IMG/VR virus record: IMGVR_UViG_3300027996_000193
Location: 1-21,588 of that record
Strand: one strand, 5' to 3'
DNA from: a virus
Length of the DNA stretch: 21,588 nt
The translations under genes and the position numbers were made by a program. The notes below the pieces were generated by a model that saw only the letters and a list, made by a program, of their open reading frames with translations, ran no database searches and was not told the origin of the DNA. Positions 3 to 16,209 of this stretch are shown here, piece by piece. Numbering within the stretch: position 1 is the first letter of the stretch; every line of letters starts with the position of its first letter.

Positions 3-3000
3 AATTTAGAAAGAGGTGATTTAAGTGAATCAGAATTAAGATCTCTTAAAACAAATATAAATGGAAACTTAGTATTTCCATTAGGTATGAATATGAGTGC
101 AAGCAGAATAGAAAAATTATTGTATTCTGCAGTTAACAGAACTCTTGTCAGACAAAAAGTAAAAGGTGATATGGAAGTGCAAGCTTCTAATTCTATGCTT
201 GGTAATAAAGAATCAATAAGTCAATTTAGATCTGCAACTGATGAAGAAAAAGAAAAATATAAAGGAACAATAGATTTACCTTCATATACAGAAGGATTTA
301 GTGGGCCAACTAATGCTGCTAAAATAAAGTTAGCATTAAAAGGAGATTTTGTTAACCTTTTAAAATTAAAAGATTTAGATGGGAATGAGATAGGAGATAT
401 ATTGACGTTAAATAAAATGATTAAAGATGATGCATGGTTGGATATAGATGATCATAGAAAAATGATAACATTAGTTGGTGTACGTATCCCTGTTCAAGCT
501 TTAAATTCTGCAGAATTCATGGAAATATATGAATTTTTACCTGAAGAAGCAGGAAATATAATTATACCACCAGCTGAAATAGTAGCTAAATCAGGTGCTG
601 ATTTTGATATTGATAAGTTAACTATGATGGCTCCAAGCATTACACTTAATAATGGTGTAGTATCACTTACTAAAGAAGGTATTAGAGGTATAGAAAATAA
701 GTTAATGTTTAATATAAAAGATATACTAAGTATGCCTGATAACTTTATTAGACTTGTACGTCCAAATAGTAATGCTTTAGGAAAAGAAATAGCAACTAGT
801 TTAGCTCCTTCAAATAGAGATCAAGAAAGTCATATAAATATATTAGATCCACTTTTTAATGTTGATATGCATGAAGCTTTTAATATAGCAGGTCAAGCTT
901 TAGGTATTGGTGCAGTAGATAATGTTTATAATCCATTGTTTAACTATTCAGGAATGTATTTAAATAATACATATAATCTTAATGATAATACCTATGATAC
1001 TAGAATACTTTTAGATCATAGTATTATGGATGTAGAAGGTTCTGAGCATATTTCTTTATCTAATCTTGTTAATACTAATGATAATGATATTGATCAAGTA
1101 TTAGAACAATTAATGAATGGTTGGGTAGATGCTGAATCTGATTTATGGATATTTGATCTTAATGCACGTACTGAATTAGCATCAACATTTTTATTATTGG
1201 TTCAAGCAGGAGTTCCGTTAAAAGATGCAGCAATATTTTTAAATAATCCATTAGTTAAAGAGTATGTAGAAGAATTAACTATTTTAAAAAGTCCTTTTGC
1301 ATTACCAATGGGAAGAAGGGACATTTCAAATTCTAATGTTAAGCAACAAGCTTTATCAAGAATGATAAATTCTAATTTTAGAAATTTTGGAACCTTTGCA
1401 GATGAAGGCGTTGAAGTAACAAAATCAATGGTAATTAATAATGCAATTGAATCAAGAACTGAAAAATTTAGTAGTGCAGAATTAAATAATATATTAAAAA
1501 AAGATTCAGAAGGATACACAGATTTACAAAAACAAGCTTTTTTACATTTTATAGAATTACAAACATTAGCAGATTCAATTACATCTGTTAAATCAGCTTT
1601 AGGTTTAGATACAAATCCTGTTGATACAATATATCAAGCTGAAGAATATAATAGAACTTTCAACGACATTTTTGAAAATAATTTAATACCAAGACAACCA
1701 ATTGATGATATTAGAGAATTATCACCAATTTCTTCTTTTCAAGATATAGCAAGTTTTCAAAGAGATTTATGGAAACCATTTTTTCCAATAAGACAAAATC
1801 AAACATTAGATGGATTTTTATCTAATTATCTTGATAGCTCTGCAGGAAGATCCGCAATGAATAATGTAGTTGGAAGTAATAGTAATAAAGATTTATTTAT
1901 ATTAAATTTTAAAAATGCATTAACAGACTATATTTTTCAAAATAATGTAATTGATGTTAATATTAATAGTAAAGAATATAAAAGTTTAGGTGTAGATACT
2001 GCTAACACAAAAATTATAAAAGACATGCCTATGTTAAAACATGGTGTTTTTGTTAAAGATGGTGTGATGTATGTTGATAAAAATAGATTACGTAAAATTT
2101 ATGATACTTCTTTATTTGCAGATAACTCATATAGAGTAATGTGGATTAATGGTAAATTAACAGGTAATTCTTTATTGCCTGCATCAGCGTTTAAAGCAAG
2201 AGGTTTTTCAAGTGAGTCATCTTTTATAAAATTTATGTATGAAAAAGAACATTTAAGATATATAATGCCATATGATAGTGTCAGCACTACTCAAAACTTT
2301 AAAGAAAGATTAAATAAAAATATAAATGTTATTGATACTATTGAAACAAAAAGACAGACAGATGAAACAGATGAAATGTTTCAAAAAAGAATGGAATATT
2401 TAACATATGATCAGATTATTACTAATAAAGCATTAGATAATACATTAAATATATGGAAAATGTTTATAAGCCCAGAAAGTATGGCTAATCAATGGTTTGA
2501 AATTAAAAAGAAATATGGTAACGAATTAGAAGCTACATATGACTTAATTGAACAATTAATACCAGATAAAAGAGTAAATAGTAAAATTAAAAATTTAAAG
2601 TTAAAAGATAGATTACTTGAGTCAGATGATGTAAATACATATAATCAAAATTTAATTGAATTATCAGATCCTGGTGTTACAAAATTAAATAATATGGAAG
2701 CTAACTTAGAAGTTTCTGATTTTTTCAATAGATTAAATTTCTTTGCAATGATTCAATCTGGTATTGGGACTGTTAATGAATTTTCTATGACAAGAATAAT
2801 AGATCATGAAAAAGTAATGACAGCATTTGCTTCTGCATATAAAAACTTTGATGTAAATAATAATGTATTAGAAGATTTAATGTTAAGATTTATTAGTCAA
2901 AACAGAATTGAAAATAGAAGTACAAATATTAGATTAAAAAATTATATAGATTCACGTACAGTTAGACTTATAGATAGAGACATTCTTCCAAAAACTGAAG

Positions 3001-3449
3001 ATGAGGAAAAATTAACATTACAGAAAATTGGTAAAAATGTTTTTACATATAAAACTTATTCAGCTTCTCTGGTTAATAAAAATAGCAATGTTACTTTTAT
3101 AACAGAAAGTAAAAGTAGTGAAAGAAAAAATGAATTTTCATTAGATGTTTCAACAATGTTAGATGAAAACATAGATTTAAATAAAGAACAAATAGATAGT
3201 TTTGTTGAAAAAATAAAACAAATTGCTAATGATGATAATCCAATTGCACTTTTAAAATCAGGTTATTTTCAAGAAAAAATAGTAAATAATCCTAAGACAT
3301 TTGTATATTTATCTAAGAAGTTATTTGAATTAGAAGGTTATATTAATCCAAAATCAATTCTTTCAAGTTCTTTAAGAGCTGTTATGCAGAAAGATGCACT
3401 TATAACTGATCAAGAAATTGAAGATTTAAAAAATAAATGTTTTATATAG
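3..3449 (+). CDS. crAss-like virion RNA polymerase, catalytic C-terminal part (5' end outside window)
   Basis: The frame is open to the left edge, so the ATG at 87 is internal and 1148 residues of a longer protein are seen. The key signature is DFDID, coded at 600-614, preceded by SGA and by a proline-rich stretch; this matches the beta'-type double-psi beta-barrel loop (NADFDGD in cellular polymerases) whose aspartates hold the catalytic metal. DFDID is the form known from the crAss-like phage phi14:2 polymerase gp66, a single-chain enzyme of about 2200 residues packaged in the virion. About 90 residues later come the segments AFNIAGQALGIGAVDN and NPLFNYSG, which could be the bridge-helix region (inference). 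The remaining ~850 residues have no motif I can name. By homology it would transcribe early phage genes after injection. It ends with TAG one base before the next ATG, so the two genes are cotranscribed. The family call is firm; domain limits beyond DFDID are not. Confidence 0.85.
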   Translation, partial: NLERGDLSESELRSLKTNINGNLVFPLGMNMSASRIEKLLYSAVNRTLVRQKVKGDMEVQASNSMLGNKESISQFRSATDEEKEKYKGTIDLPSYTEGFSGPTNAAKIKLALKGDFVNLLKLKDLDGNEIGDILTLNKMIKDDAWLDIDDHRKMITLVGVRIPVQALNSAEFMEIYEFLPEEAGNIIIPPAEIVAKSGADFDIDKLTMMAPSITLNNGVVSLTKEGIRGIENKLMFNIKDILSMPDNFIRLVRPNSNALGKEIATSLAPSNRDQESHINILDPLFNVDMHEAFNIAGQALGIGAVDNVYNPLFNYSGMYLNNTYNLNDNTYDTRILLDHSIMDVEGSEHISLSNLVNTNDNDIDQVLEQLMNGWVDAESDLWIFDLNARTELASTFLLLVQAGVPLKDAAIFLNNPLVKEYVEELTILKSPFALPMGRRDISNSNVKQQALSRMINSNFRNFGTFADEGVEVTKSMVINNAIESRTEKFSSAELNNILKKDSEGYTDLQKQAFLHFIELQTLADSITSVKSALGLDTNPVDTIYQAEEYNRTFNDIFENNLIPRQPIDDIRELSPISSFQDIASFQRDLWKPFFPIRQNQTLDGFLSNYLDSSAGRSAMNNVVGSNSNKDLFILNFKNALTDYIFQNNVIDVNINSKEYKSLGVDTANTKIIKDMPMLKHGVFVKDGVMYVDKNRLRKIYDTSLFADNSYRVMWINGKLTGNSLLPASAFKARGFSSESSFIKFMYEKEHLRYIMPYDSVSTTQNFKERLNKNINVIDTIETKRQTDETDEMFQKRMEYLTYDQIITNKALDNTLNIWKMFISPESMANQWFEIKKKYGNELEATYDLIEQLIPDKRVNSKIKNLKLKDRLLESDDVNTYNQNLIELSDPGVTKLNNMEANLEVSDFFNRLNFFAMIQSGIGTVNEFSMTRIIDHEKVMTAFASAYKNFDVNNNVLEDLMLRFISQNRIENRSTNIRLKNYIDSRTVRLIDRDILPKTEDEEKLTLQKIGKNVFTYKTYSASLVNKNSNVTFITESKSSERKNEFSLDVSTMLDENIDLNKEQIDSFVEKIKQIANDDNPIALLKSGYFQEKIVNNPKTFVYLSKKLFELEGYINPKSILSSSLRAVMQKDALITDQEIEDLKNKCFI

Positions 3450-3450
3450 T

Positions 3451-6400
3451 ATGGCAAAAATGTGTCCAAATACAAATACTGCAGAATGGAAAGAATCTGT
3501 AAATATTTTAACTGAAAAAGGAGCAATTAAAAGTTGGTTAAAAAACGAAGATATTGTAGATCCTAAAACTTCATTATATCAAAATTATTTAGAAGAAGAC
3601 TTTAACAATGCTTTAAATCTTCTTGATGAATATACAGATGATGAATCTAAATTAGATTTTACTAATAATACATCATCTAGAGTAATTATAGAAAATGCTA
3701 ATCCATTAATATTTAATGATAATCAGTTTTTAACTTATTTAAATAAAAATGTTGTTAAAGAACTAGGATTAGAAGAGTCTGATGTAAAGACAGTAACACC
3801 AGTTGAAGATAATATTATAAGTTTAAGTGAAAAAGAAAGAAACAAAAATTTAAAAAAAATAGAAAAAGAAATTGATGAAGCAAATGAAAACAGTTTTTTT
3901 GGAATATTAAAAAAAGAATATAAAAATAATTCTATTTATCCAAATACTATTAATGTAGTAATGAAATTTTTGGAAAATATAGGAGTTGAAACAAGATTGG
4001 TAGATGAAATTTTAACTGAAGATGGTAATGTTGTAAAGAGTGCATTAGCTGTAGCTAATTTTATGAACGGGTCAGTTGATATAATTAATGATATTGAAAA
4101 AAGAGGTAAAGCTTGGGATAAGGTTCCTGAAGAAGCAGCACATTTTTTCTATAGATTATTAAAAGATAATGCACCATTAAAAAATGAATTATGGGAATCT
4201 GCAAAAAGATCAGATAAATTAGAACAATTATTAAAAAGCTCAGTTTATAATAAAGCATATGATATAGGAACAGATGTATATGAAAATTCAAGTGTATTAC
4301 TTGATGTGTTAACTGAGGAAGCAATAGGACAATTAATTTCTGATGCAATATCTAGAGTTCAAAATAAAACTGCAGCAACTCCTGAAGATTATAGTTTTTT
4401 CAAAGCACTTATTAAATGGTTTAAAGAAATTTTTAGTGTTTGGAGTAAATTAAGTCCTGAATTAAAAGATGAGAGCAATAGAGCATGGGATAATGCAGCA
4501 AGAAGAATATTATCATCTGATTTAACAGATCTTATGACATTTGATGAATATTATGCCGCTAATGAAGAAACTTTAACGATGATTCCATCATACGCTTCAA
4601 TAAATGATATTAATAATTTTGATGTTATAACTGATGAACAAAAAACAATATTAAAATTTGATAAACAATTTAAAAGACGTAGTAGATATCTTAAAAAAAC
4701 ATATAATAATCTTTTTTCATTTAAAATTAAAAATATTGCACCAACAAATAACCAAATATACGATATAGATTTTACAGTAAATCAAGAAAGAAGGTTAAAT
4801 GAATTAACAGAAACTTTTACAAAAGAAGATACTGTAGTAGATCTTGGAGAAGGAAATAAAAAAGATTTAATAACTAAATCTCCTGTATTAAGATCATCTG
4901 AAGAATTTTTAAAAAAATATGGTAATATTGATATATCACTATCTCAACCTTTAAAAATAAAAGGATATCCAAAATTAGATTTAGAAATATATAATAAAGT
5001 ACTTAAACTAATAAAAAATGAAAATTCAGATATAAAATCTATAAAAGGTAAGGATTTATTAAAAGAAGTTAATATTTATTTAGATGCTAAATATCTATTA
5101 AATTTTAAAAATGAAAATATGTATTTAGATTATGGTGTAACAGGTACTTTTCTTTATGAAGATTCAAATGTAGAAACTCCACAAACTATTTCACAAGAAA
5201 GACTAGCATATTTAAGCACTTTAACACAAGAAGATCTTAATGCTTTACCTTCAGAAGAACAAGCAAGAATAAGAGAAGAGTTAGTATTAGCAACTAATCA
5301 TCAAAATGTAGATAAGAAATTTATAATAAATAAAGATTTTTTAACAGGAAAAGTTGAACATAATAAAGTTTCAATGTTTTTTAATAATACTGGAAATGTT
5401 ACAAAAAAAAGAGCACATACTCATTTTTCTATGTCAACTTATGATGAATCAGAAAATAACAATCTAGGTAATATTGATTTTGATAATTATATAAACCACC
5501 GTGTAATGCCTACTGCCTTTGGTAGCTTAACATATTATTATAGTTCTAATAATTCTACTATTAAAGATGCTGCTGTAATACATGAAATACAAAGTGATAA
5601 TATTGAATATTATTTAAATTTATTAGCAACTATAGATTCAAATGATAATAAAGAAGATAAAATAAAAGAAGCTAATGAGATAACTAATAAAATAATTAAT
5701 CAATTAAAAATCGAGCAAGAAGATAAAATAAATAACTTATCATATGATAAGGTAATGGAAATAAGATCACTTAATAACAACTTAAGTATACACAATGAAA
5801 GATCAACAAATGTTCAAAGATCTATAAGGGAAACAGTTCTAAATGAACTTAAGCTTAGATATAAAAATAATTTAAATTCACTTATTGGAGACTTAAATAG
5901 ATTAAAGAAGAATGACACAAAAGAAGAAAAAATAAAATTTTTAGAACAAAGTATAAAAGATTTTAAAGAAGATTATGAAGATTTTAGTAGAAACGAAAAT
6001 TCATATGTAAATCTTATTAGAAAAATTAAAAATAAATTAACTCAAACAAGAGAGTATGCTAGAGAAAATCCTTTATCTATTTATGAAAAGCAACTTGCTT
6101 TAAATTATAATTATTCAGTTAGAGGAGTTTTTCAAGATATAAAATCTAAAGGTGGACTATTTAAAATACTTCCTGAATCATTTTTAACTGAATATAATGA
6201 ATTAAAAGAAGAATATAATTTTTTTCAAAATTATGCTGACTATTTTAGAGATGGTGATAATGACAGAATAACAAAATTTAAAAACTTTTCTGAAAAAGTT
6301 CTTGATTTTATAACATCAAAATATAATTTTGATGTTGGTGAAATGCCTTCATATGCATCTAAACAGTATGATAAATATTTAGAAGAACAAAGAACTAAAC

Positions 6401-9400
6401 TTACGTTTCAAATAAGTGATGTATTATTTAAGCCAGTATATAAACCAAGAACTAATTATGAAGAGTATCAAACTAATCAAAAAATTATTGATTATATTAA
6501 AATTAATAGTTTAATTGATGGTATAAATAATATAATATTTGAAAGTAAAAAAGAATTAAGAAAGACATATTATAAAATGTCAGAATTTAAATCACTTGAT
6601 AGTTTTATTAAATATGTAGATGATCCAACATTAAAAAATTATATAAAAAATATAGCATATAATGATGCATTATTAAGCCTTACTTCTTTAAAAATACTTG
6701 TTAAAAAAACAAGTAAATTTAATCCAAAAAAAACAAAAGATAAAAGCTTTGTTAAAGAAGTTAAAGAACTTAAAAATGAAGTAAAAAATATAGAAGAAAC
6801 TTTAATAAATAATTTAAAAGATTTTAATGATGAAACTATTCTTCAAACAAATAAAAAAGAAATAAAAGAAATTGCTAATAGAGAACTATCATACTTTAGA
6901 CCTTTAGTTAATGAGCTAATACAAAGACATATAAATAATGTTGGTAAAAGTGTACCATTATATTTTTCAGGATTTCAAATGGCATCATTGCTTCAATCAA
7001 ATACTAATACTGCATTAATATATGCAGGTCCTGAAGAAACCTGGATAGAGCAAGATCAAAGAGTAGCTTTTCAAAGTTTTGAAAATGAAGGTGATAAATA
7101 TACTGCATTTTTAGAAAATGGAAAAGATAAAGAACCTGTATATAAAATAAATGATGAACCTATATCTAAAAAAGCTTATACTAAAAAATATAATCAAGCT
7201 AAACAAGAAAAAATAAATGATGTTATAAAAGATATCTTTTATGATTTATTAAACGATAAAAATTTAGCTGAATCATTAAATAATAGTTTAAAAAATCAAA
7301 CTCTTTATACTGATCCTACTGATACTGAAGTAATACCAATTAATATTATTAATAAAACTCTTAAAGATTGGAAAAATGATACAAGTGTTTCTCAAAATAT
7401 TAGAAATCGAAGAGTTGTAATGTATAACAATAAAATGTTTGAAAAAACAAATAATAAACCTTTAGTTGTTGGTGCTTTATTTTCTGCATTAAATAGTTTA
7501 CCTGGTATTACTATAAAATGGGTTCCAAATGTTGATGGTTTTAAAAATGATGCAGGTGGTTATTTAATTGATGTTTCTAATTATCATTATAAAGCTGCAA
7601 TGTTATATGGTTTAGATACTGAGCAAAGTATGTCAATACAAAAAGACGCAACAGATGCAATAATTACTCCAGTTAACATGACTGAGTCAGGTCAAAAGAC
7701 TGCTCGTGCAAATGAAATAGTTTATAAACTTGCTTCAAAATTATCAAAAAGTACAGGTATACCTTTTGTAATGGTAACTAAAGAAGAAGCTACAGAAATG
7801 CTTGCAAATTCACAATCACCATACAATGATGATAACGCCTTCTTTTTTGATGGAAAGGTTTATTTAGTTGGAGATACTGTATCTTTAGAAGATGTATTAC
7901 ATGAATATGCACATCCATTAGTAAGAAGTATTGGTGTACAAAATCCAAAGTTATTTAATAAAATATTTGAAGATTTATCTAATACACAAGATGGTTTAAA
8001 AATAATTGAAGAAGTAACAAATTTATTTGGAGAAGATTATGAATTTTTCAAAGAAGAAGTAATTGTAAGAGCTTTGACTGAAAAGTCAAATTTAGATGAA
8101 CAAAATTTACAACCTAAATCTGTATTTCAAAAAATAATAGATAAAATTATATATGCAATTAAATCAGTTTTAAGATCTGCATTTAAAGGAAGTAAGATAA
8201 ATATAAACAATCTATCACCTTCTACAACTTTATCTGAATTAGCTAAAATGTTAGAATCTAAAGATTTTAATATTGATATAGATATTGTAACTAATTCTGA
8301 TATTGCAGTTTTTAATAGACAAACTAAAGAATATGTTAATGATCTTCAAAATGTAAAAAATAATGATTTAATAAAAATTACTAATAATTTTTATGATACT
8401 ATAAGAAATCAAATGTTTCAGTTACGTAAAAATAATTATTCAGAACTAGTTGAAATTTTGGCCCCATCAAGAGACAAAGGATTTTTACCATATATGCAAA
8501 AATCACTTTCTAAGTATCAAACAATTAATATAGAAAATGCAGAAAAATATGCTCAAAAATTTAATGAAGATTTAAACTATCAACAACAACATAGTGAAGC
8601 ATTAATAACTAATGTATTACAAGTAAAGATGATGTTAGAAAAAATGGTAGATCAATTACATGATTTATCAAAAGATCCAAATCATAAACAAAACTTACAA
8701 CGTGCTTTTTATTATGGAAAAGTTTTAAATCATTGGGAAAAATTCTATAATGATTCATTATCAATAATTAATGATATTGAAAGGGGATTAGCTAGAACAG
8801 AATTTGGTAAAATTCTTGACTCAATAAATCAAGAAATACAATCAGGTAAAAAAATGATGATTAACATCAGAATTAAAGGTGTTAAAGATGCATTATATGA
8901 AAAAATTAAACCTTTGATGGATAATGTAAAAGATAAGTATGAACAAAAGGTTGAAATAATTAAAAAATCAAGAAGATCAGATAAATTAAAAAAGAATAGA
9001 TTACGTGAATTAAAAGAAGAATTTGATAATGCATATTTAACTAAAGAAAACTTTGAAAAAATGTTAAGAGGAGAATTAGGTGATGCACATTACTTAAATG
9101 GTTTTCTAGAAGGATACATGTATAATCAGGATCCTGTTGTTGCAAGTTTAGCTAAATATGTAAAAGATAATTATAATGAAATGTTAGCTAAAGTTCAAAA
9201 AGTAGCTAATGATTTTGCTAAAGATATGGAATCTGATATTAAAAGATCTAAAATTGCTACTGATCCAGCTGCAATTGGAAAACAAGTTTTATTTACTGAT
9301 ACTGTAATGGTTAGAAATCCAGAAACAGAAGAGCTTGAAGAAAAGAAAATATGGACAATATTAAATCCTTTTAAAGGTGATAGAAAAGCAGAAAGTGAAT

Positions 9401-12400
9401 ATAAAGAAGAAATTGAAAAAGCAAAGAAAATTGCTTTTGAGACTAATGATCATACAGCATTAATTCAAGCTGTTAATAATTTTAGAATATTTAAAAATAA
9501 CTATTATCATAGACCTTACGCAAAAATATTTTATGATAGGCAAAATATATTTGATACTCCAGAAGGTCAAAAAGCTTTTTATGCAAGACAGGTTATATAT
9601 GAAAAAATGGATAATATCAGAAGAAGAAGTGGTTCTGAGTTAGAAAGATTACAATCTATAGATGATATTAAACCTTTATTATATGATTTAAGACAGCTAT
9701 CATCATTGGTAGATCTTAATGGTAATAAAAAGAAATCAGGTAAAGAAAATCCTGAATTAAAATTAGAAGCTAAAGATGATTTAGATGTAGCATTTATATT
9801 AAGAGAATATTCAGAAAAGTCAAGAAGATTTTTTGAATATGAAGAGATACCAAATTTGTTTAATGAAAGATATTTAGCATTTATTGAAGAGCTTAAAATG
9901 AAAGGTATTACTGAAGAAAATTCTCCAAATGAATTTGCTAAAGAAGAAGAAAAATGGTTAGAAAGTAATACTAGAAAAGCCATAAAACAAGAATTTTATG
10001 ATACAAGAGCAGACATATTTTCTAGATTAGAAGAATTAATAAAAAAATTACCTGAAGATATTGCAAAAAAACTTAGTAGATCAGAAATTACTACAGATAT
10101 ATATGACGCATTAGGTCCATATAAAGATACAGATGGACAACCAGTTGGAACAGAAATGTCTGAAAAAATGATAGCATATATTAAGTCGTTACAAGAAACT
10201 TTAAATAAAATAAAAGATGAAGAACTTACTGTTTCTGGATTAACTAAAGCTGAAAAAGAAGAATTAAATAATTTATGGGATTTATGGAAAAATTATAGAG
10301 ATGGTATGGAAAAAGAAGATCTTGATAGATTTGAATTTTTAAATAATAAATCTAGTACTCAAGGTTTATCCAAAGCACAAAAATCAGAATTTTATTCTTT
10401 ACTTGGAGAGCTTGATACATTACAGTCTAAAATACCTACAGAATATTACTTAGATATATTTAATAATTATTTAAGCAAACTAGATACAAGCAGTATTAAC
10501 ATTCCAGGGTTTAACGGTGAAGTAAATTCTTTTAATATAATTGATATTATAGGGACAAGATCTATTATAAATAGTCTATTAAATCAAGATAAGGAATTTA
10601 AAACATGGTTTAATAAAAATCATATAGATAGAAAAATTAAAGTTAAAGGGAAAACTAGAAAGATATATGACATAGTATATGCTTGGTCAAAAGTGATACC
10701 AAATGATAAATCATATTATGAACAAACTAACATAGTAAATTCTAAAGGAACTATAATAAAAACAATTGATGCTTTACCTTCATATGAATATTTTGATAGA
10801 AATGTTAAAGATTTTTATTTAGATGATTTTGGTAGAAAAGTTAAATTAACTACAGATAGGATAGTTGGAGAAACAATTGATAATAGAGGTAGATGGTTGC
10901 CAAAAGAAGGAAAAGATTTAGAAGCAGGAGTACCTGATAGATTTAGAAATGACGAATACTTTAGAATTAAAAGAGAAGACCCAACACGTTTTAAATTAAT
11001 TGAAAAAGTAAAAAAATGGATGTTAATTTTTCAAGAAGATGCTGATGATAAAAGTAAATTATATTTAGATTCTCCTAGATTTAGAAGGACTAATTTAGAA
11101 TATTTGCAATCTGGTGAAGCAAGAAAAGAAAAGGTTTCTCAATGGAAAGCTATAAAAAAAGGAATAAAAGATATATTTGCTGCATCAGAAGATGATGCAG
11201 AAGAAGGTAACGCTAACTATGATGAAGATACTAATTTAGAAATTGCTCATTTAGATTTAATTGATGATGATGTTAACATACCAATAAATGGATTATATTC
11301 AATAGATTCTGATCAGGTTTCTTTAGATCTTATTCAAGGTATGTATAGATATATGACATCTATTAAAAAACAAAATAAGTTAGTTGAAATGAATCCAGTA
11401 GCTGAATCATTAAAAAACATAACATCTGATCCTGAAAATGCATTAAAAGATGTAGTCAGAATTGAGAAAGAAAACATGTTAAATAGAGCTATTAAAAAAG
11501 TTAAGTTTAAAAAAGGAAAATACATAAGAGAAAATATAATTAATAATTTTTATGAAAGAGAGTTTGAGGGAAAAACTTTAACAGGAATTGGTTCAGATAG
11601 TAATGCAGTTAATAAAATTGCAGGTCTTATTATGTCTAGAGCATCTTTTGCATTTTTTGCATTAAATATGCCATCTGCATTAAAAAATAGATATGGGGCA
11701 ATGTTTCAAATAATGATTGAATCAGCAGGTCATAAACATTTAAATCCGTTAAGTTTAGCAAAAGGAAGAGCTTGGTCAGCTGGAGCAGCTATAGAAATTA
11801 TGAGTCAAGTTTATACTAGAGGTCCAAAATCTCATAAATTACAATTAATAGAATTATTTGATTTTGTTCAAGGAAGATTTGAAGAAAAAATTGGTAATTC
11901 AAGTTCAAGATCTGTGATATCTGATGCTGCAAACATGAAATGGTTATATTCTCCAAGAAAAATGATGGAATTAGAAGCATCATTACAACTAGCTGGAGGA
12001 ATGTTATACAAACAAAAAGTTAAATTAAATAATGGTACAGAAATATCATTAGTTGATGCATATGAAACTGTAGATCAACAAATTAGACTTAAAGATGAGG
12101 TGACTGATAGAGAATGGGAACCAGGTAAAAGTAAATTTAATGCTTTTAAAAATACACAACAGCAAGTATCTAACAATCTACAAGGAGCATATGCAAAATT
12201 TGATCAACCTGAAGCACAACGTTATTTAGCATTTAGAGCATTTTCTTTTTTAAGAAGATATTTTACACCTATGATGATAAATAGATATGCGTTTAAAGGA
12301 AAAATATGGAATCCTCAAGAAAGATATGATATTGCTACAGATGATATAACAATGGGATATTACATGAGATCTTTAAAATGGGCAGGTAAAGTTTTAAAAT

Positions 12401-12933
12401 CTGGAGGACAAGAACTAATATATATGACACCTGAAGAAAGATCAGCTGGAATTAAAGTTCTTACTGAACTTGCATTATTATATTCTTTACCATTGTTAGC
12501 AGGATTGTTATTTGGATGGGATGGTGATGATGATGATAGATTTAGTAAATTAAGAAAAAGAGAAAAAACAGCATGGGGATGGGCTCAAAATCATATGTTG
12601 TTTCAATTAATGGCTATACGTGCAGAAAATGAACAATTTATTCCATTACCTGCATATGGATTAGGTGATATATTAGGATTTAAAGATGTAACATCAGTTG
12701 TATTTGGTCCTACATTAGATACTTATGGTAAAGTATTAATTGATTTAAATAATACTTGGTTTGGTGATGACGGAAATTATTATAAAGTAGATGTTGGTCC
12801 ACATCCTTGGCAGAAAAAAGGTTCAAATAAAATTTGGAATCATTTAGGAAAAGCTGTAGGAATTTCTGGTAAAGATAGAAGTCCTGCTCAAATGATTAAA
12901 GATTTTGATTCATTTAGACAACGTTATAAATAA
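3451..12933 (+). CDS. Giant 3160-residue multidomain phage cargo-type protein with zincin-like peptidase domain
   Basis: It starts one base after the polymerase stop. The N-terminus (MCPNTNTAEWK) resembles the opening of other giant phage polyproteins. Visible landmarks in order: a degenerate zincin-like EEAAH at residues 227-231 followed by TEEAIGQL near 288; an EIQSD motif at 712-716 after an HTHF segment, as in a domain recurrent in phage polyvalent proteins; a very charged Lys/Glu-rich region about 750-1150, probably helical; a canonical HEYAH at 1484-1488 with E1535/E1536 about 50 residues on, as in gluzincin metallopeptidases; long charged helical stretches about 1600-2300; and a C-terminal third with hydrophobic segments near 2730-2760 and 3004-3023, followed by a DGDDDD cluster. 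Giant proteins with zincin domains lie beside the RNA polymerase in crAss-like phages, and some are packaged as cargo ejected into the host. That role is inferred here. Self-processing of the polypeptide or cleavage of host proteins are both possible for the peptidase. Confidence 0.8.
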   Translation: MAKMCPNTNTAEWKESVNILTEKGAIKSWLKNEDIVDPKTSLYQNYLEEDFNNALNLLDEYTDDESKLDFTNNTSSRVIIENANPLIFNDNQFLTYLNKNVVKELGLEESDVKTVTPVEDNIISLSEKERNKNLKKIEKEIDEANENSFFGILKKEYKNNSIYPNTINVVMKFLENIGVETRLVDEILTEDGNVVKSALAVANFMNGSVDIINDIEKRGKAWDKVPEEAAHFFYRLLKDNAPLKNELWESAKRSDKLEQLLKSSVYNKAYDIGTDVYENSSVLLDVLTEEAIGQLISDAISRVQNKTAATPEDYSFFKALIKWFKEIFSVWSKLSPELKDESNRAWDNAARRILSSDLTDLMTFDEYYAANEETLTMIPSYASINDINNFDVITDEQKTILKFDKQFKRRSRYLKKTYNNLFSFKIKNIAPTNNQIYDIDFTVNQERRLNELTETFTKEDTVVDLGEGNKKDLITKSPVLRSSEEFLKKYGNIDISLSQPLKIKGYPKLDLEIYNKVLKLIKNENSDIKSIKGKDLLKEVNIYLDAKYLLNFKNENMYLDYGVTGTFLYEDSNVETPQTISQERLAYLSTLTQEDLNALPSEEQARIREELVLATNHQNVDKKFIINKDFLTGKVEHNKVSMFFNNTGNVTKKRAHTHFSMSTYDESENNNLGNIDFDNYINHRVMPTAFGSLTYYYSSNNSTIKDAAVIHEIQSDNIEYYLNLLATIDSNDNKEDKIKEANEITNKIINQLKIEQEDKINNLSYDKVMEIRSLNNNLSIHNERSTNVQRSIRETVLNELKLRYKNNLNSLIGDLNRLKKNDTKEEKIKFLEQSIKDFKEDYEDFSRNENSYVNLIRKIKNKLTQTREYARENPLSIYEKQLALNYNYSVRGVFQDIKSKGGLFKILPESFLTEYNELKEEYNFFQNYADYFRDGDNDRITKFKNFSEKVLDFITSKYNFDVGEMPSYASKQYDKYLEEQRTKLTFQISDVLFKPVYKPRTNYEEYQTNQKIIDYIKINSLIDGINNIIFESKKELRKTYYKMSEFKSLDSFIKYVDDPTLKNYIKNIAYNDALLSLTSLKILVKKTSKFNPKKTKDKSFVKEVKELKNEVKNIEETLINNLKDFNDETILQTNKKEIKEIANRELSYFRPLVNELIQRHINNVGKSVPLYFSGFQMASLLQSNTNTALIYAGPEETWIEQDQRVAFQSFENEGDKYTAFLENGKDKEPVYKINDEPISKKAYTKKYNQAKQEKINDVIKDIFYDLLNDKNLAESLNNSLKNQTLYTDPTDTEVIPINIINKTLKDWKNDTSVSQNIRNRRVVMYNNKMFEKTNNKPLVVGALFSALNSLPGITIKWVPNVDGFKNDAGGYLIDVSNYHYKAAMLYGLDTEQSMSIQKDATDAIITPVNMTESGQKTARANEIVYKLASKLSKSTGIPFVMVTKEEATEMLANSQSPYNDDNAFFFDGKVYLVGDTVSLEDVLHEYAHPLVRSIGVQNPKLFNKIFEDLSNTQDGLKIIEEVTNLFGEDYEFFKEEVIVRALTEKSNLDEQNLQPKSVFQKIIDKIIYAIKSVLRSAFKGSKININNLSPSTTLSELAKMLESKDFNIDIDIVTNSDIAVFNRQTKEYVNDLQNVKNNDLIKITNNFYDTIRNQMFQLRKNNYSELVEILAPSRDKGFLPYMQKSLSKYQTINIENAEKYAQKFNEDLNYQQQHSEALITNVLQVKMMLEKMVDQLHDLSKDPNHKQNLQRAFYYGKVLNHWEKFYNDSLSIINDIERGLARTEFGKILDSINQEIQSGKKMMINIRIKGVKDALYEKIKPLMDNVKDKYEQKVEIIKKSRRSDKLKKNRLRELKEEFDNAYLTKENFEKMLRGELGDAHYLNGFLEGYMYNQDPVVASLAKYVKDNYNEMLAKVQKVANDFAKDMESDIKRSKIATDPAAIGKQVLFTDTVMVRNPETEELEEKKIWTILNPFKGDRKAESEYKEEIEKAKKIAFETNDHTALIQAVNNFRIFKNNYYHRPYAKIFYDRQNIFDTPEGQKAFYARQVIYEKMDNIRRRSGSELERLQSIDDIKPLLYDLRQLSSLVDLNGNKKKSGKENPELKLEAKDDLDVAFILREYSEKSRRFFEYEEIPNLFNERYLAFIEELKMKGITEENSPNEFAKEEEKWLESNTRKAIKQEFYDTRADIFSRLEELIKKLPEDIAKKLSRSEITTDIYDALGPYKDTDGQPVGTEMSEKMIAYIKSLQETLNKIKDEELTVSGLTKAEKEELNNLWDLWKNYRDGMEKEDLDRFEFLNNKSSTQGLSKAQKSEFYSLLGELDTLQSKIPTEYYLDIFNNYLSKLDTSSINIPGFNGEVNSFNIIDIIGTRSIINSLLNQDKEFKTWFNKNHIDRKIKVKGKTRKIYDIVYAWSKVIPNDKSYYEQTNIVNSKGTIIKTIDALPSYEYFDRNVKDFYLDDFGRKVKLTTDRIVGETIDNRGRWLPKEGKDLEAGVPDRFRNDEYFRIKREDPTRFKLIEKVKKWMLIFQEDADDKSKLYLDSPRFRRTNLEYLQSGEARKEKVSQWKAIKKGIKDIFAASEDDAEEGNANYDEDTNLEIAHLDLIDDDVNIPINGLYSIDSDQVSLDLIQGMYRYMTSIKKQNKLVEMNPVAESLKNITSDPENALKDVVRIEKENMLNRAIKKVKFKKGKYIRENIINNFYEREFEGKTLTGIGSDSNAVNKIAGLIMSRASFAFFALNMPSALKNRYGAMFQIMIESAGHKHLNPLSLAKGRAWSAGAAIEIMSQVYTRGPKSHKLQLIELFDFVQGRFEEKIGNSSSRSVISDAANMKWLYSPRKMMELEASLQLAGGMLYKQKVKLNNGTEISLVDAYETVDQQIRLKDEVTDREWEPGKSKFNAFKNTQQQVSNNLQGAYAKFDQPEAQRYLAFRAFSFLRRYFTPMMINRYAFKGKIWNPQERYDIATDDITMGYYMRSLKWAGKVLKSGGQELIYMTPEERSAGIKVLTELALLYSLPLLAGLLFGWDGDDDDRFSKLRKREKTAWGWAQNHMLFQLMAIRAENEQFIPLPAYGLGDILGFKDVTSVVFGPTLDTYGKVLIDLNNTWFGDDGNYYKVDVGPHPWQKKGSNKIWNHLGKAVGISGKDRSPAQMIKDFDSFRQRYK

Positions 12934-13295
12934 TGTTTATTAGTGATTATATTGAAATTAGAGAATCTAATTTACACGGGTTAGGTGTATTTGCAAAAAA
13001 AGATATACCAGCCAGAACTAAAATAGAAATTTCTCCAGGTATCTTATTAACTAAAAAACCTCAAGATAAACTCTTTAAATATTGTTTTAGTCACAATCAA
13101 AAACCTTGGGCAGTATTATTTCCATTAGGATATCTTGGAATTTATAATAGTTCTTCTAAACCTAATATAAGAGTTTCAATAAATTGTGAAAAAAATCTTA
13201 TAACAGTTATTACTAAAACTAATATTAAAAAAGATTCTGAACTTTTGCATGATTATGAATTTTTTAGAAAAAAAGAAGGAGATATTATTGATTAA
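12933..13295 (+). CDS. Small SET-domain protein, putative protein-lysine methyltransferase
   Basis: At 120 residues it is almost entirely one SET domain, the enzyme fold that moves a methyl group from S-adenosylmethionine to protein lysines. Visible motifs: HGLGVFAKKDIPA (15-27), the usual N-terminal SAM-binding strand-turn; LGYLGIYNSSSKPN (65-78), in the place of the usual NHSxxPN; and a C-terminal ELLHDYEFF (103-111) containing the expected glutamate and tyrosine. Size and spacing closely match the 119-residue viral enzyme vSET of chlorella virus PBCV-1, as recalled. The oddity is that the conserved NH pair reads N72-S73: asparagine is kept but histidine is replaced, so activity is not certain. 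There is no post-SET cysteine cluster. Its ATG overlaps the stop of the giant gene by one base (TAATG), so it is translationally linked to that late operon and is the last plus-strand gene. A target among virion proteins, the polymerase or host proteins is only inference. Confidence 0.8.
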   Translation: MFISDYIEIRESNLHGLGVFAKKDIPARTKIEISPGILLTKKPQDKLFKYCFSHNQKPWAVLFPLGYLGIYNSSSKPNIRVSINCEKNLITVITKTNIKKDSELLHDYEFFRKKEGDIID

Positions 13296-13324
13296 AAAAA
13301 AAAGGTGACATTTCTGCCACCTTT
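13294..13324 (-). terminator. Intrinsic terminator of the minus-strand SPL/Myb operon
   Basis: Read on the minus strand, 13324-13301 form a 10-bp stem with one G-U wobble closed by a GAAA (GNRA) tetraloop, followed by an uninterrupted T run (the A run at 13294-13303 on the plus strand). On the plus strand the wobble becomes an A-C mismatch and no T tract follows the stem, so the element is built for minus-strand transcripts. It lies about 90 bases beyond the stop of the SPL-like gene and directly abuts the stop codon of the SET gene. Confidence 0.8.
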
Positions 13325-13364
13325 AAACATGAAAAACAATAATTACGCAAAGAAACATAATTAT

Positions 13365-13405
13365 GCTGTAAATATACAAACAATTATTTGTTTGCACAGC
13401 TTTTT
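13365..13405 (+). terminator. Probable terminator of the plus-strand late operon
   Basis: An outer stem GCTGT/ACAGC (13365-13369 with 13396-13400) encloses a perfect 7-bp inner stem CAAACAA/TTGTTTG (13377-13383 with 13388-13394) with a TTAT loop, and is followed by TTTTT at 13401-13405. The T run lies on the plus strand, so it would end transcripts coming through the SET gene. The stem is AT-rich and interrupted by an unpaired AAATATA, so it is weaker than the neighbouring minus-strand terminator. Confidence 0.5.
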
Positions 13406-13413
13406 CAGTATTT

Positions 13414-14268
13414 TTAAAAAATATATCTTATTGTATTCCATGGAATAATACTATCATGCAATTCTTTAAACAAGTTTATAGATTCTTGTTTTAATGATCT
13501 TTTATATCTTACATTAACTCCTCCATAACTAGAAGTCTTTTCTTCTTGTGTTGACGGACTCCATAGTAAATCTTCTCCTGGAATATTATTATCAATATTG
13601 TATTGGTGTTTATTTTTGTTATGTGTTAGAAATATAACTTCTGATTTTACTTCATCTTTGTAATCTATATAATCATTACACATATTAAATAATAAACTAT
13701 AATCTTTAAGCCAGTTATCATTAATTATAACAGGACTAAAATTTAAATGAACTTCATATCCTGCTTCAATAAATGCATTAACAGCTTTAATCCTGTCTAT
13801 AATATCAGGAGTATTTGGTTCTACAATACTAGATATTTTTTGTGGCATTAAACTAAATCTTATTCTAACTTTTTTTAAAGGATTGTATTCTAAAAATTTA
13901 ATAGGAATAATTTTAGTAGCAAATGTTGCTTTTGCATAAGGATGTTCAAGGAAAAATTGAAATATCTTTTTCCAATTATAATATTTAGAATGAAGAGCAA
14001 AATCTTCATTACATGCAATATCATATGTTATATACTTAGGATCAGTTTGGTTTGGTTTTTCTATTGTATCAAATAATGAATGATTGTTTATTGCAGTTAA
14101 TATATCTTCTATATTTTTTGCAACACTTAATCCTTCTGGAACATTACGTTTCATATAACAATAAGAACAGTTTAATAAACAACCATAACCAAAAGAAGGA
14201 GCAATATAATCACTACTCCTTCCTGATGGCCTTATTATCATAGATTTTCTAGTTACTTTTTGAATCAT
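13414..14268 (-). CDS. Spore-photoproduct-lyase-like radical SAM enzyme
   Basis: A 284-residue protein with the radical SAM cluster motif C30-x3-C34-x2-C37 (GCLLNCSYCY), which binds a 4Fe-4S cluster and cleaves S-adenosylmethionine. Several blocks match spore photoproduct lyase as I recall it: YDIACNEDF (82-90) in the place of the SPL segment carrying the hydrogen-donor cysteine, with C86 kept; FATK (116-119); VRIRFSL then EPNTP (134-154); and EAGYEV followed by SPVI and a W-x3-Y (168-190). SPL reverses the UV thymine dimer of spore DNA and is usually about 340 residues, so this is a short form with a reduced N-terminus. As phage hosts of this kind do not sporulate, repair of ordinary UV damage to phage DNA, or a DNA or nucleotide modification, are the options. 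The start overlaps the upstream Myb-like gene by 20 bases, so the two are coupled. Confidence 0.8.
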   Translation of the reverse strand: MIQKVTRKSMIIRPSGRSSDYIAPSFGYGCLLNCSYCYMKRNVPEGLSVAKNIEDILTAINNHSLFDTIEKPNQTDPKYITYDIACNEDFALHSKYYNWKKIFQFFLEHPYAKATFATKIIPIKFLEYNPLKKVRIRFSLMPQKISSIVEPNTPDIIDRIKAVNAFIEAGYEVHLNFSPVIINDNWLKDYSLLFNMCNDYIDYKDEVKSEVIFLTHNKNKHQYNIDNNIPGEDLLWSPSTQEEKTSSYGGVNVRYKRSLKQESINLFKELHDSIIPWNTIRYIF

Positions 14269-14725
14269 TAAGTTCTATTTTTCTTTTTTCAATGTCATCA
14301 TTTGTAATTGCTTTTGCAGCATCAATTGCATTTTGTATTACAATTCCTGCTACACCATCATTGAATAATACATTCATTATAGCATTTTTTTCTAAATTTT
14401 CTTTAATCAATAAATTAAATAAACTAGAATCTAAATCAGAATTAATTAAATTTGATATTTTCTCATAATTTTCTTTAGTTATATAGTAACCTTCTCCAGG
14501 TTCTATTCCTTTTTCATCTAAACCATTAGTATCTAGTTTAGTAAAGTCATTTACTAATTCTCTCATAAGTTCAGTTCTTTTATTACGTACTCCTTTGATT
14601 CTTCTATCTAGTACATATGCAATAGTTTTATCAGTTTCACCTTCTATATGTTGGTCTAATAAAGTATTTAATTCTTCTTTTGTCCAATTTTTACCATCTC
14701 TAAGGTATGTTTTTGTTGATGCCAT
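14249..14725 (-). CDS. Myb/SANT-like DNA-binding protein
   Basis: A 158-residue protein. Residues 13-52 have the spacing of a Myb/SANT or homeodomain-like helix-turn-helix: NWTKEELNTLL as helix 1, KTIAYVLDRRIKGVRNKR as helices 2-3, with a W near the start and the basic recognition helix at the end. The remainder (about 55-158) is helical and acidic and shows no motif I recognise; it could mediate oligomer formation. Small proteins with this fold are common in phages as transcription regulators or accessory DNA-binding factors. It is the first gene of a two-gene unit with the SPL-like enzyme and ends in TAG inside that gene's start. The leader is A/T-rich (TTTAAAAAAAATGG) without a Shine-Dalgarno sequence, and a short inverted repeat lies about 45 bases upstream. 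The role as regulator is inferred from the fold only. Confidence 0.65.
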   Translation of the reverse strand: MASTKTYLRDGKNWTKEELNTLLDQHIEGETDKTIAYVLDRRIKGVRNKRTELMRELVNDFTKLDTNGLDEKGIEPGEGYYITKENYEKISNLINSDLDSSLFNLLIKENLEKNAIMNVLFNDGVAGIVIQNAIDAAKAITNDDIEKRKIELNDSKSN

Positions 14726-14767
14726 TTTTTTTAAATTTAATTTGTTTATAAATAAATAATGTTTATA

Positions 14768-14822: not shown

Positions 14823-14849
14823 GGGGAGCGTTTGCTCCCCTTTTTTTTT
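14823..14849 (-). terminator. Strong bidirectional hairpin terminator after the DUF932-like gene
   Basis: A perfect 7-bp GC-rich stem GGGGAGC/GCTCCCC (14823-14829 with 14834-14840) has a 4-base loop. T runs flank it on both strands: nine T on the plus strand at 14841-14849 and five T on the minus strand after the stem (A run at 14817-14821). It lies right at the stop codon of the gene ending at 14848 and separates the polymerase/DUF932 unit from the Myb/SPL unit. It is one of the most GC-rich spots in the window. Confidence 0.85.
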
Positions 14850-16209
14850 AAAATTCAAAGTCTGGCAACTCCAATTTACCTTCATCTGAATTATTTTCAA
14901 CTACATTTATATCTGAATTTATTTCTTCATTGTCAGCTTTTTCATCAAAATCTTCTTGAGATCCTTTTTTGAGTTCACTTACAATTTCATTAACATCAGA
15001 AAGATCTGAATCTTCATCTATAGACTCTTCTCCAAAATAATTATCAAAAGATAAATCATTATTAGATTCTTCTATATTTTCTACCTCATCTAAAATGTCT
15101 TCAGCCTCTTCTTTTTCAATTATTTCTTCAGAAACTTCTGGTCTAACTTTATCAGCAATAATGTTAAATACATCCTCTTCTTCTCTCTCCTCAATGATCT
15201 CTTCATTTTCAATCATATCAGCTTCCTCATCAGCTAGATTATCTAAAGCTTCATTTCTTATTACTTCACCTGTTTCATCATCAAACTGTTCTATTTTATC
15301 ATCTCTCACTCTTAAACTAACAGGATTAAATTCAGGCTCTAAAGCTTCAGGACAAGAATTCATGTCATCTGTTCCTAATAAAGGAGTATCAACTTCCTCT
15401 AATAAATTATCAAGTGGGTTTGGAGTCACTTCTTTATCAATAACATCAACAATATTCATTTGATTTGGATTTACAACAGCTTTTTTAGGTAAATAATTAT
15501 TTACTATAAAACTATGTAATTCAGCTTGTTGATCCATCCAATTTTTTGGATGAGATGTTTTTAAAGAATAAGTAATATGATTATATACTGCCCATAATGA
15601 ATTTAAAGGAGCATTATAATCATAACTTGGTTTTTCATATTGTTTTTTAGTAATACTTAATTGATTAATAGTTATGATATCTTTAAAGAATACACAACCC
15701 ATAATTCCCATTGTTTCTTCTTCTGTTAAAGAAACAACTTTCATTGCTGCTTTATCATGTTTAATCATATTATAATAATTTGAAGCAGTTCCAATTTGAG
15801 TTTCTATATGTTGTTTAACTAAACCTTTAACTTTAGTACTATCACCATAATGCTTTTTATTATAATTGGCCATATCTCCTATCATCATACCATTCCCACA
15901 TACAAATACATGTGCACCTACTGCACATTTAAATCTTGTAGATTTATCATATGAATTACACCATGCAAACATTAATCCTAATTCTGGATCATCTCCATGA
16001 TTTATATAATATATACCTTGTGCTACTCCACCATTGTGAGTACATCTATATTCTTCAGTATTTATAGAATATCCTTGATTTTCTAATTCTTCTTTTATAG
16101 TATCAATAATGTATCCATGAGATACAGTTGCATATTGTTTACTATGTTGCGTTGGAAGAGGGATTTGTTTTAATCCCTGTTCACTTATGTTTCCTATTGT
16201 TTTTGGCAT
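14848..16209 (-). CDS. DUF932-like phage protein with long acidic C-terminal tail
   Basis: A 453-residue protein. The N-terminal half (about 15-250) resembles the DUF932 / phage-plasmid protein family (TIGR03299 type): SKQYATVSHGYIIDTI near 23-38, FAWCNSYDKSTRFK at 81-94 (the NSYDGS-like signature) and VFVCGNGM at 101-108 (the VCxNGM signature). From about 255 to the end it is a low-complexity, strongly acidic tail full of Asp and Glu, ending LELPDFEF. An acidic tail capped by a terminal phenylalanine is the hallmark of single-strand-binding proteins such as bacterial SSB and T7 gp2.5, where it docks replication partners. DUF932 itself has no proven reaction that I know of. The gene starts one base after the stop of DNA polymerase B, so the two are one transcription unit, which supports a replication role. 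An ssDNA-binding or replisome-adaptor function is inference. Confidence 0.7.
   Translation of the reverse strand: MPKTIGNISEQGLKQIPLPTQHSKQYATVSHGYIIDTIKEELENQGYSINTEEYRCTHNGGVAQGIYYINHGDDPELGLMFAWCNSYDKSTRFKCAVGAHVFVCGNGMMIGDMANYNKKHYGDSTKVKGLVKQHIETQIGTASNYYNMIKHDKAAMKVVSLTEEETMGIMGCVFFKDIITINQLSITKKQYEKPSYDYNAPLNSLWAVYNHITYSLKTSHPKNWMDQQAELHSFIVNNYLPKKAVVNPNQMNIVDVIDKEVTPNPLDNLLEEVDTPLLGTDDMNSCPEALEPEFNPVSLRVRDDKIEQFDDETGEVIRNEALDNLADEEADMIENEEIIEEREEEDVFNIIADKVRPEVSEEIIEKEEAEDILDEVENIEESNNDLSFDNYFGEESIDEDSDLSDVNEIVSELKKGSQEDFDEKADNEEINSDINVVENNSDEGKLELPDFEF

Follow-up and report, generated by a model that had tools for sequence, protein, structure and literature searches.

A minimal SET-domain gene with an altered NH motif behind the late genes of a predicted crAss-like phage

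Described SET proteins and the fold of the 120-residue product

The SET family is best known for histone methylation in animals and plants, and its enzymes have been studied mostly on histones. A described viral member is PBCV-1 vSET (A612L; PDB 1n3j, 3kma), an H3K27 methyltransferase that consists of a minimal SET domain of ~119-120 aa without pre-SET and post-SET regions. S. pombe Set7 (PDB 5h6z) and Plasmodium PFL0690c (PDB 4rz0) are eukaryotic proteins with longer chains, and their motif reads NHD or NHS. Databases already list SET proteins for tailed phages, for example in uncultured Caudovirales (A0A6J5L8Y2) and in the 735-kb phage LR756501, and no experimentally characterised phage SET enzyme was found in open-licence papers. 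What appears to be new here is that a crAss-like phage has a predicted SET enzyme of the minimal viral form, belonging to a recurrent type in which the NHS motif reads NSS.

The window (the whole stretch of viral DNA that was analysed, 21,588 nucleotides) contains the gene and its motifs as follows.

12933..13295, + strand: SET-domain protein of 120 aa, vSET-like, with no pre-SET and no cysteine-rich post-SET region (Pfam, phmmer, AlphaFold2, Foldseek)
12978..12986, + strand: G16-L-G18, the domain's GxG motif (G18 is the same in all 76-77 homologues aligned)
13146..13154, + strand: N72-S73-S74, the altered NHS motif, with S in place of H (homologue counts at position 73)
13239..13256, + strand: E103 to the catalytic Y108 (both invariant in aligned homologues)

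The open reading frame at 12933..13295 encodes a complete 120-aa SET domain and nothing else, with two scattered cysteines. PF00856 (SET) matched the protein with E=3.7e-10 and 40.6 bits, against a cut-off of 22.4 (Pfam). As a single sequence compared with the PDB (phmmer), it found S. pombe Set7 as the best match (8e-8), then PFL0690c (5e-5) and vSET (0.018); with a profile of 77 relatives, the matches spanned 1e-23 to 4e-25 (Set7 3.7e-25, vSET 9e-24). An AlphaFold2 model based on 76 sequences was confident (pLDDT 92.2, pTM 0.84). Foldseek with this model returned PFL0690c as the best fold match (7.7e-10), vSET (2.6e-9, TM 0.89 on vSET) and Set7, and the top matches were all SET proteins. Among viral models, the best match was the SET protein that an uncultured Caudovirales phage encodes. 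The Caudovirales and LR756501 proteins represent the same minimal phage SET (fold E=1.4e-10; 33% identity), in genomic contexts that differ from that of the window, and the LR756501 protein has NHS.

An earlier note on this DNA had proposed a SET fold of minimal vSET-like size and had named a different predicted fold as the result that would speak against it. Structure prediction and comparison with vSET, which it recommended, were carried out; the confident predicted structure is a SET fold, the size is as proposed, and vSET is among the top Foldseek matches. The note's reading of the residues was likewise confirmed: the protein has G16-x-G18 (which we take, from SET structures generally, to bind SAM), N72-S73-S74 (codons AAT AGT TCT), P77-N78, E103 and Y108. 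The fold, the catalytic Tyr and the GxG are common to vSET and the window protein. vSET differs in having NHS, in infecting a eukaryotic host with histones (histones are not expected in a bacterial host) and in sequence (27% identity). G18, N72, I98, E103 and Y108 are invariant in the 77 aligned homologues, and a chance open reading frame or a frameshift artefact is ruled out by the relatives and by the dN/dS values given below.

The histidine of the NH motif, which is common in the SET family but not strictly defining, is thus absent, and serine stands in its place. Homologues were gathered from viral contigs and from one scan of bacterial and archaeal genomes. Among the 103 distinct ones, position 73 is H in 85 (H-type), S in 17 (S-type) and T in 1, with no other residue. 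The search patterns contain nothing at position 73, so the search did not select for its residue.

The late operon and the junction behind it

The genes and features around the SET gene are the following.

87..3449, + strand: part of a crAss-like virion RNA polymerase with a DFDID motif, its frame running off the edge of the window (tblastn to crAss 'putative RNA polymerase')
3451..12933, + strand: giant late protein of 3160 aa (relatives in crAss-like contigs)
12933..14750, no strand: block of mostly 90-100% DNA identity to the related contig L001, starting at the SET start codon; right edge approximate
13301..13324, no strand: hairpin between the convergent operons, followed by a T-run only on the - strand, terminator-like for that strand
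13414..14268, - strand: spore-photoproduct-lyase-like (SPL-like) radical SAM protein, a convergent, accessory neighbour (Pfam SPL 1e-23)

The described counterpart of the late genes is the gp45-gp50 operon of Crassvirales phage crAss001. The likeness lies in the virion RNA polymerase, since the window's polymerase part matched crAss RNA polymerases in tblastn with E-values of 1e-6 to 7e-11 and 23-29% identity, and the crAss-like context claimed for the SET gene is borne out by this upstream match. The arrangement differs (in crAss001, gp47 is on the + strand and gp49/gp50 on the - strand), the window lineage is distant, and no SET is annotated in crAss001 within 1-75 kb. For the C-terminal 560 aa of the giant protein, tblastn gave no GenBank phage match, and a single-sequence search found no relatives of the gene; relatives were found once an alignment served as query. 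Of nine long giant-gene records that were searched, four have homologues of the crAss major capsid protein and portal, at 22-25% identity; the SET-bearing contigs, fragments of 49-54 kb, gave no such match. Because long relatives of the giant gene carry these homologues, the window phage appears to belong to a distant crAss-like lineage. By analogy with crAss001, the giant protein is probably a virion cargo or RNA-polymerase-associated protein, a cargo role being described for such giant proteins (PMC10172136).

The SET gene follows directly after the last + strand gene of the late operon, and its start codon shares 1 base with the giant gene's stop codon (TAATG). In the relative L004, a 1-base gap takes the place of this overlap. 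Of the earlier description of the two genes as fused by a 1-base overlap, the overlap therefore stands, whereas the fusion does not, these being separate genes. The hairpin at 13301-13324 is most readily taken for a terminator of the genes on the opposite strand.

Compared with L001, the window shows a sharp step in identity at the SET start codon, at 12933, which marks a recombination edge, the block then extending to about 14750. The high-identity block spans the SET gene, the SPL-like gene and a gene for 158 aa, while the preceding giant gene is ~45% identical in protein. Slow evolution was considered as the cause of the 96% identity of the SET protein to that of L001 and was rejected: the SET and SPL DNA is 90-100% identical in most bins, and the giant gene is saturated at its synonymous sites. 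The combination of the two points to exchange, and the SET gene thus lies in a recently exchanged block with its left edge at the giant gene's stop codon.

The SET gene is present in 4 of 32 viral records with the giant gene (two distinct types) and absent from 28 over the stretch examined, several of these 28 being near-duplicates and one (L144) ending shortly past the giant gene. When the whole available sequence of 12 giant-gene records was searched with Pfam SET, the three known carriers were positive and the nine others, at 63-124 kb, gave 0/9. SET as a conserved crAss-like gene is hence rejected, and the same gene in the same position, for which the earlier note proposed to search crAss-like genomes, was absent from the 28 other giant-gene records. 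The giant gene most similar to that of the window is in L126 (56% across the C-terminal query), and there it is followed directly by the DUF932 and DNA polymerase genes; near the junction of other relatives lie genes for DNA ligase, PRA-PH, a T9SS protein or SPL. The SPL-like gene is missing from the locus of L004 and is present without SET in L130, L151 and L156. By these comparisons, SET is an accessory insertion in a variable junction where late and replication genes converge.

Since the junction collects unrelated cargo (DNA ligase, PRA-PH, T9SS-sorted protein, SPL), and since the SET gene lies in an exchanged block at such a junction, its position next to the RNA polymerase says little about a virion substrate. 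The suggestion that a place next to the virion RNA polymerase is in itself a pointer to a virion or polymerase substrate is accordingly unsupported, for an accessory insert that 28 records lack.

Several neighbouring genes were recorded in passing. Spore photoproduct repair would be odd for a non-sporulating host, yet an SPL-like gene is found in this crAss-like phage. The DUF932 protein at 14848-16209 of the window (- strand) adjoins the DNA polymerase; it is kept in most crAss-like relatives and is split into two frames in L001. Directly after the giant gene of another crAss-like contig, L139:9995-11932 encodes a secreted protein of host type that has a cohesin domain and a T9SS C-terminal sorting domain; Bacteroidota hosts would agree with it.

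SET genes of other phages and the probable substrate

S-type phage SETs adjoin genes for virion structural proteins (PHROGs head and packaging), and in L015, L016, L158 and L159 they also adjoin 2OG-Fe(II) oxygenase genes. In L070:4971-6038 and L177:4989-6086, both S-type, SET and 2OG oxygenase are fused in a single protein, and such fusions are possibly two-step protein-modifying enzymes. A 2OG gene was found within 4 kb in 4 of 17 S-type versus 1 of 58 H-type loci; the home-made profile derives from S-type neighbours, several of the loci are closely related to one another, and fusions were looked at in S-type loci, so that the association between S-type SETs and 2OG genes is to be taken as a lead and not as a test. 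Around H-type SETs, a tail-sheath cluster gene is found at a distance of no more than 4 kb in 28 loci, and a helicase cluster gene in 25, the annotation of each cluster resting on one representative. The tail-sheath loci were counted against the virion-target reading, as they are H-type, up to 4 kb distant and in many cases also near the helicase gene.

Unrelated phages thus repeatedly have SET genes in their late regions, and the strongest argument that the targets are late, possibly virion, proteins comes from this recurrence. The virion or late target named in the earlier note remains plausible by way of these other phage SETs, amid structural genes and 2OG oxygenases, and not by way of the gene's own adjacency.

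The reading that we prefer, with middling confidence, is an accessory, probably active SET lysine methyltransferase, probably co-transcribed with virion genes and most likely methylating a late-made phage protein. The minimal vSET-like domain, with serine replacing the NH-motif histidine, would bind SAM and transfer methyl as other SET enzymes do, by means of G16-x-G18, the N72 turn and Y108. As the gene stands directly behind the last late gene, co-transcription with the virion genes is probable, and the most likely substrate would be lysines of a late phage product such as a virion or ejected protein.

A possible, clearly less probable reading is an active methyltransferase directed at a host protein (ribosomal, elongation factor, nucleoid, RNA polymerase or defence), serving take-over or counter-defence. 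An accessory, exchangeable gene at a cargo junction is typical of host-interaction genes, and LegAS4 is among the SET fold matches in Foldseek; bacterial SET effectors such as LegAS4 act on foreign proteins. However, no host-interaction gene is linked to the SET gene, and both its place behind late genes and the other phage SETs amid structural genes favour late targets.

We tentatively extend the preferred reading, a late-made phage protein as substrate, to tailed phages at large: these may keep a neglected virion modification in which small SETs, including the recurrent His-to-Ser type, methylate structural or ejected proteins, some together with 2OG-Fe(II) hydroxylases, with crAss-like phages having acquired one. 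If virion proteins are indeed methylated, and hydroxylated as the fusions hint, particles would bear a layer of modification that annotation has missed and that standard virion proteomics could see.

Some further loci are of note. In L015, L016, L158 and L159, two or three separate 2OG-Fe(II) oxygenase genes lie beside or near SET, behind the gene of a virion structural protein, and in L016 a 689-aa gene comes immediately past SET. The L070 and L177 fusions sit among large, probably structural, late genes. Two viral contigs (L043:4995-5698 and L047:5001-5734) each have two different SET genes, one directly behind the other.

The serine of the NSS motif and catalytic activity

The S-type members keep the rest of the catalytic set (N72 and G16/G18 in 17/17, E103 and Y108 in 16/16 where covered). 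A sequencing error was rejected as the source of NSS, as the close relatives, 96% and 79% identical to the window SET, keep it; in all, NSS is found in four relatives and S in 17 distinct homologues. With dN 0.026 versus dS 0.22 for the window and L001, and 0.152 versus 0.508 for the window and L004 (both NG86), the gene is under purifying selection. NSS is accordingly neither unique nor a sign of decay. A residue that compensates for S73 was also sought, and no alignment column tracking it stands out beyond relatedness.

Published mutants of the motif histidine, none of which is Ser, differ in outcome. In yeast Set1, H1017A is hyper-methylating and H1017L and H1017R are null, and the authors hold that size and charge at this position can be changed with catalysis retained (PMC3585878). 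MLL1 H3907A binds AdoMet poorly, as quoted in PMC3585878. For PfSET7, H517A was constructed as a mutant that lacks catalytic activity (PMC4763181). Whether a small residue is accepted thus depends on the SET enzyme; for vSET, a residue-level test of the histidine was not found in the open-licence vSET papers.

The restriction to H, S or T, the intact catalytic set and the mutant literature together lead us to judge that the window protein is quite probably active rather than dead. A pseudo-enzyme, which lost methyl transfer when H gave way to S and is left with binding SAM or a partner, is unlikely. Some SET enzymes, PfSET7 among them, need the histidine, and catalytically inactive SET proteins exist (SET-24, PMC12886896). 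Against this, position 73 is confined to three residues in 103 distinct proteins, unlike what is expected of a drifting pseudo-enzyme, the S-type members retain the catalytic Tyr, Glu and Asn, dN/dS is low and Set1 H1017A is active. Of the dead enzyme that the earlier note offered as one option, the H-to-S change is real, and the inactivity is made improbable by the 17 of 103 homologues that share S with catalytic residues kept, by dN far below dS and by Set1 H1017A.

It is very improbable that serine reshapes the pocket of an active enzyme for a non-lysine acceptor (histidine as in SETD3, or an unusual hydroxylase-made residue in phages having hydroxylases), even though S-type SETs co-occur or fuse with 2OG oxygenases, as SETD3 belongs to a separate, larger SET subfamily and the scan of window proteins gave no 2OG gene. 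SETD3 is described as an example of His methylation by a SET fold (PMC6400499, PMC8537074).

Phage SETs are of interest as minimal enzymes for biochemistry, and the natural proteins with repeated change of the NH-motif His to Ser offer a direct test of how far the histidine is needed. On a tree of SET homologues built without the motif columns, at least five switches between H and S were counted. A single S-clade was rejected with p=0.03, a weak result given the short protein and a number of long branches.
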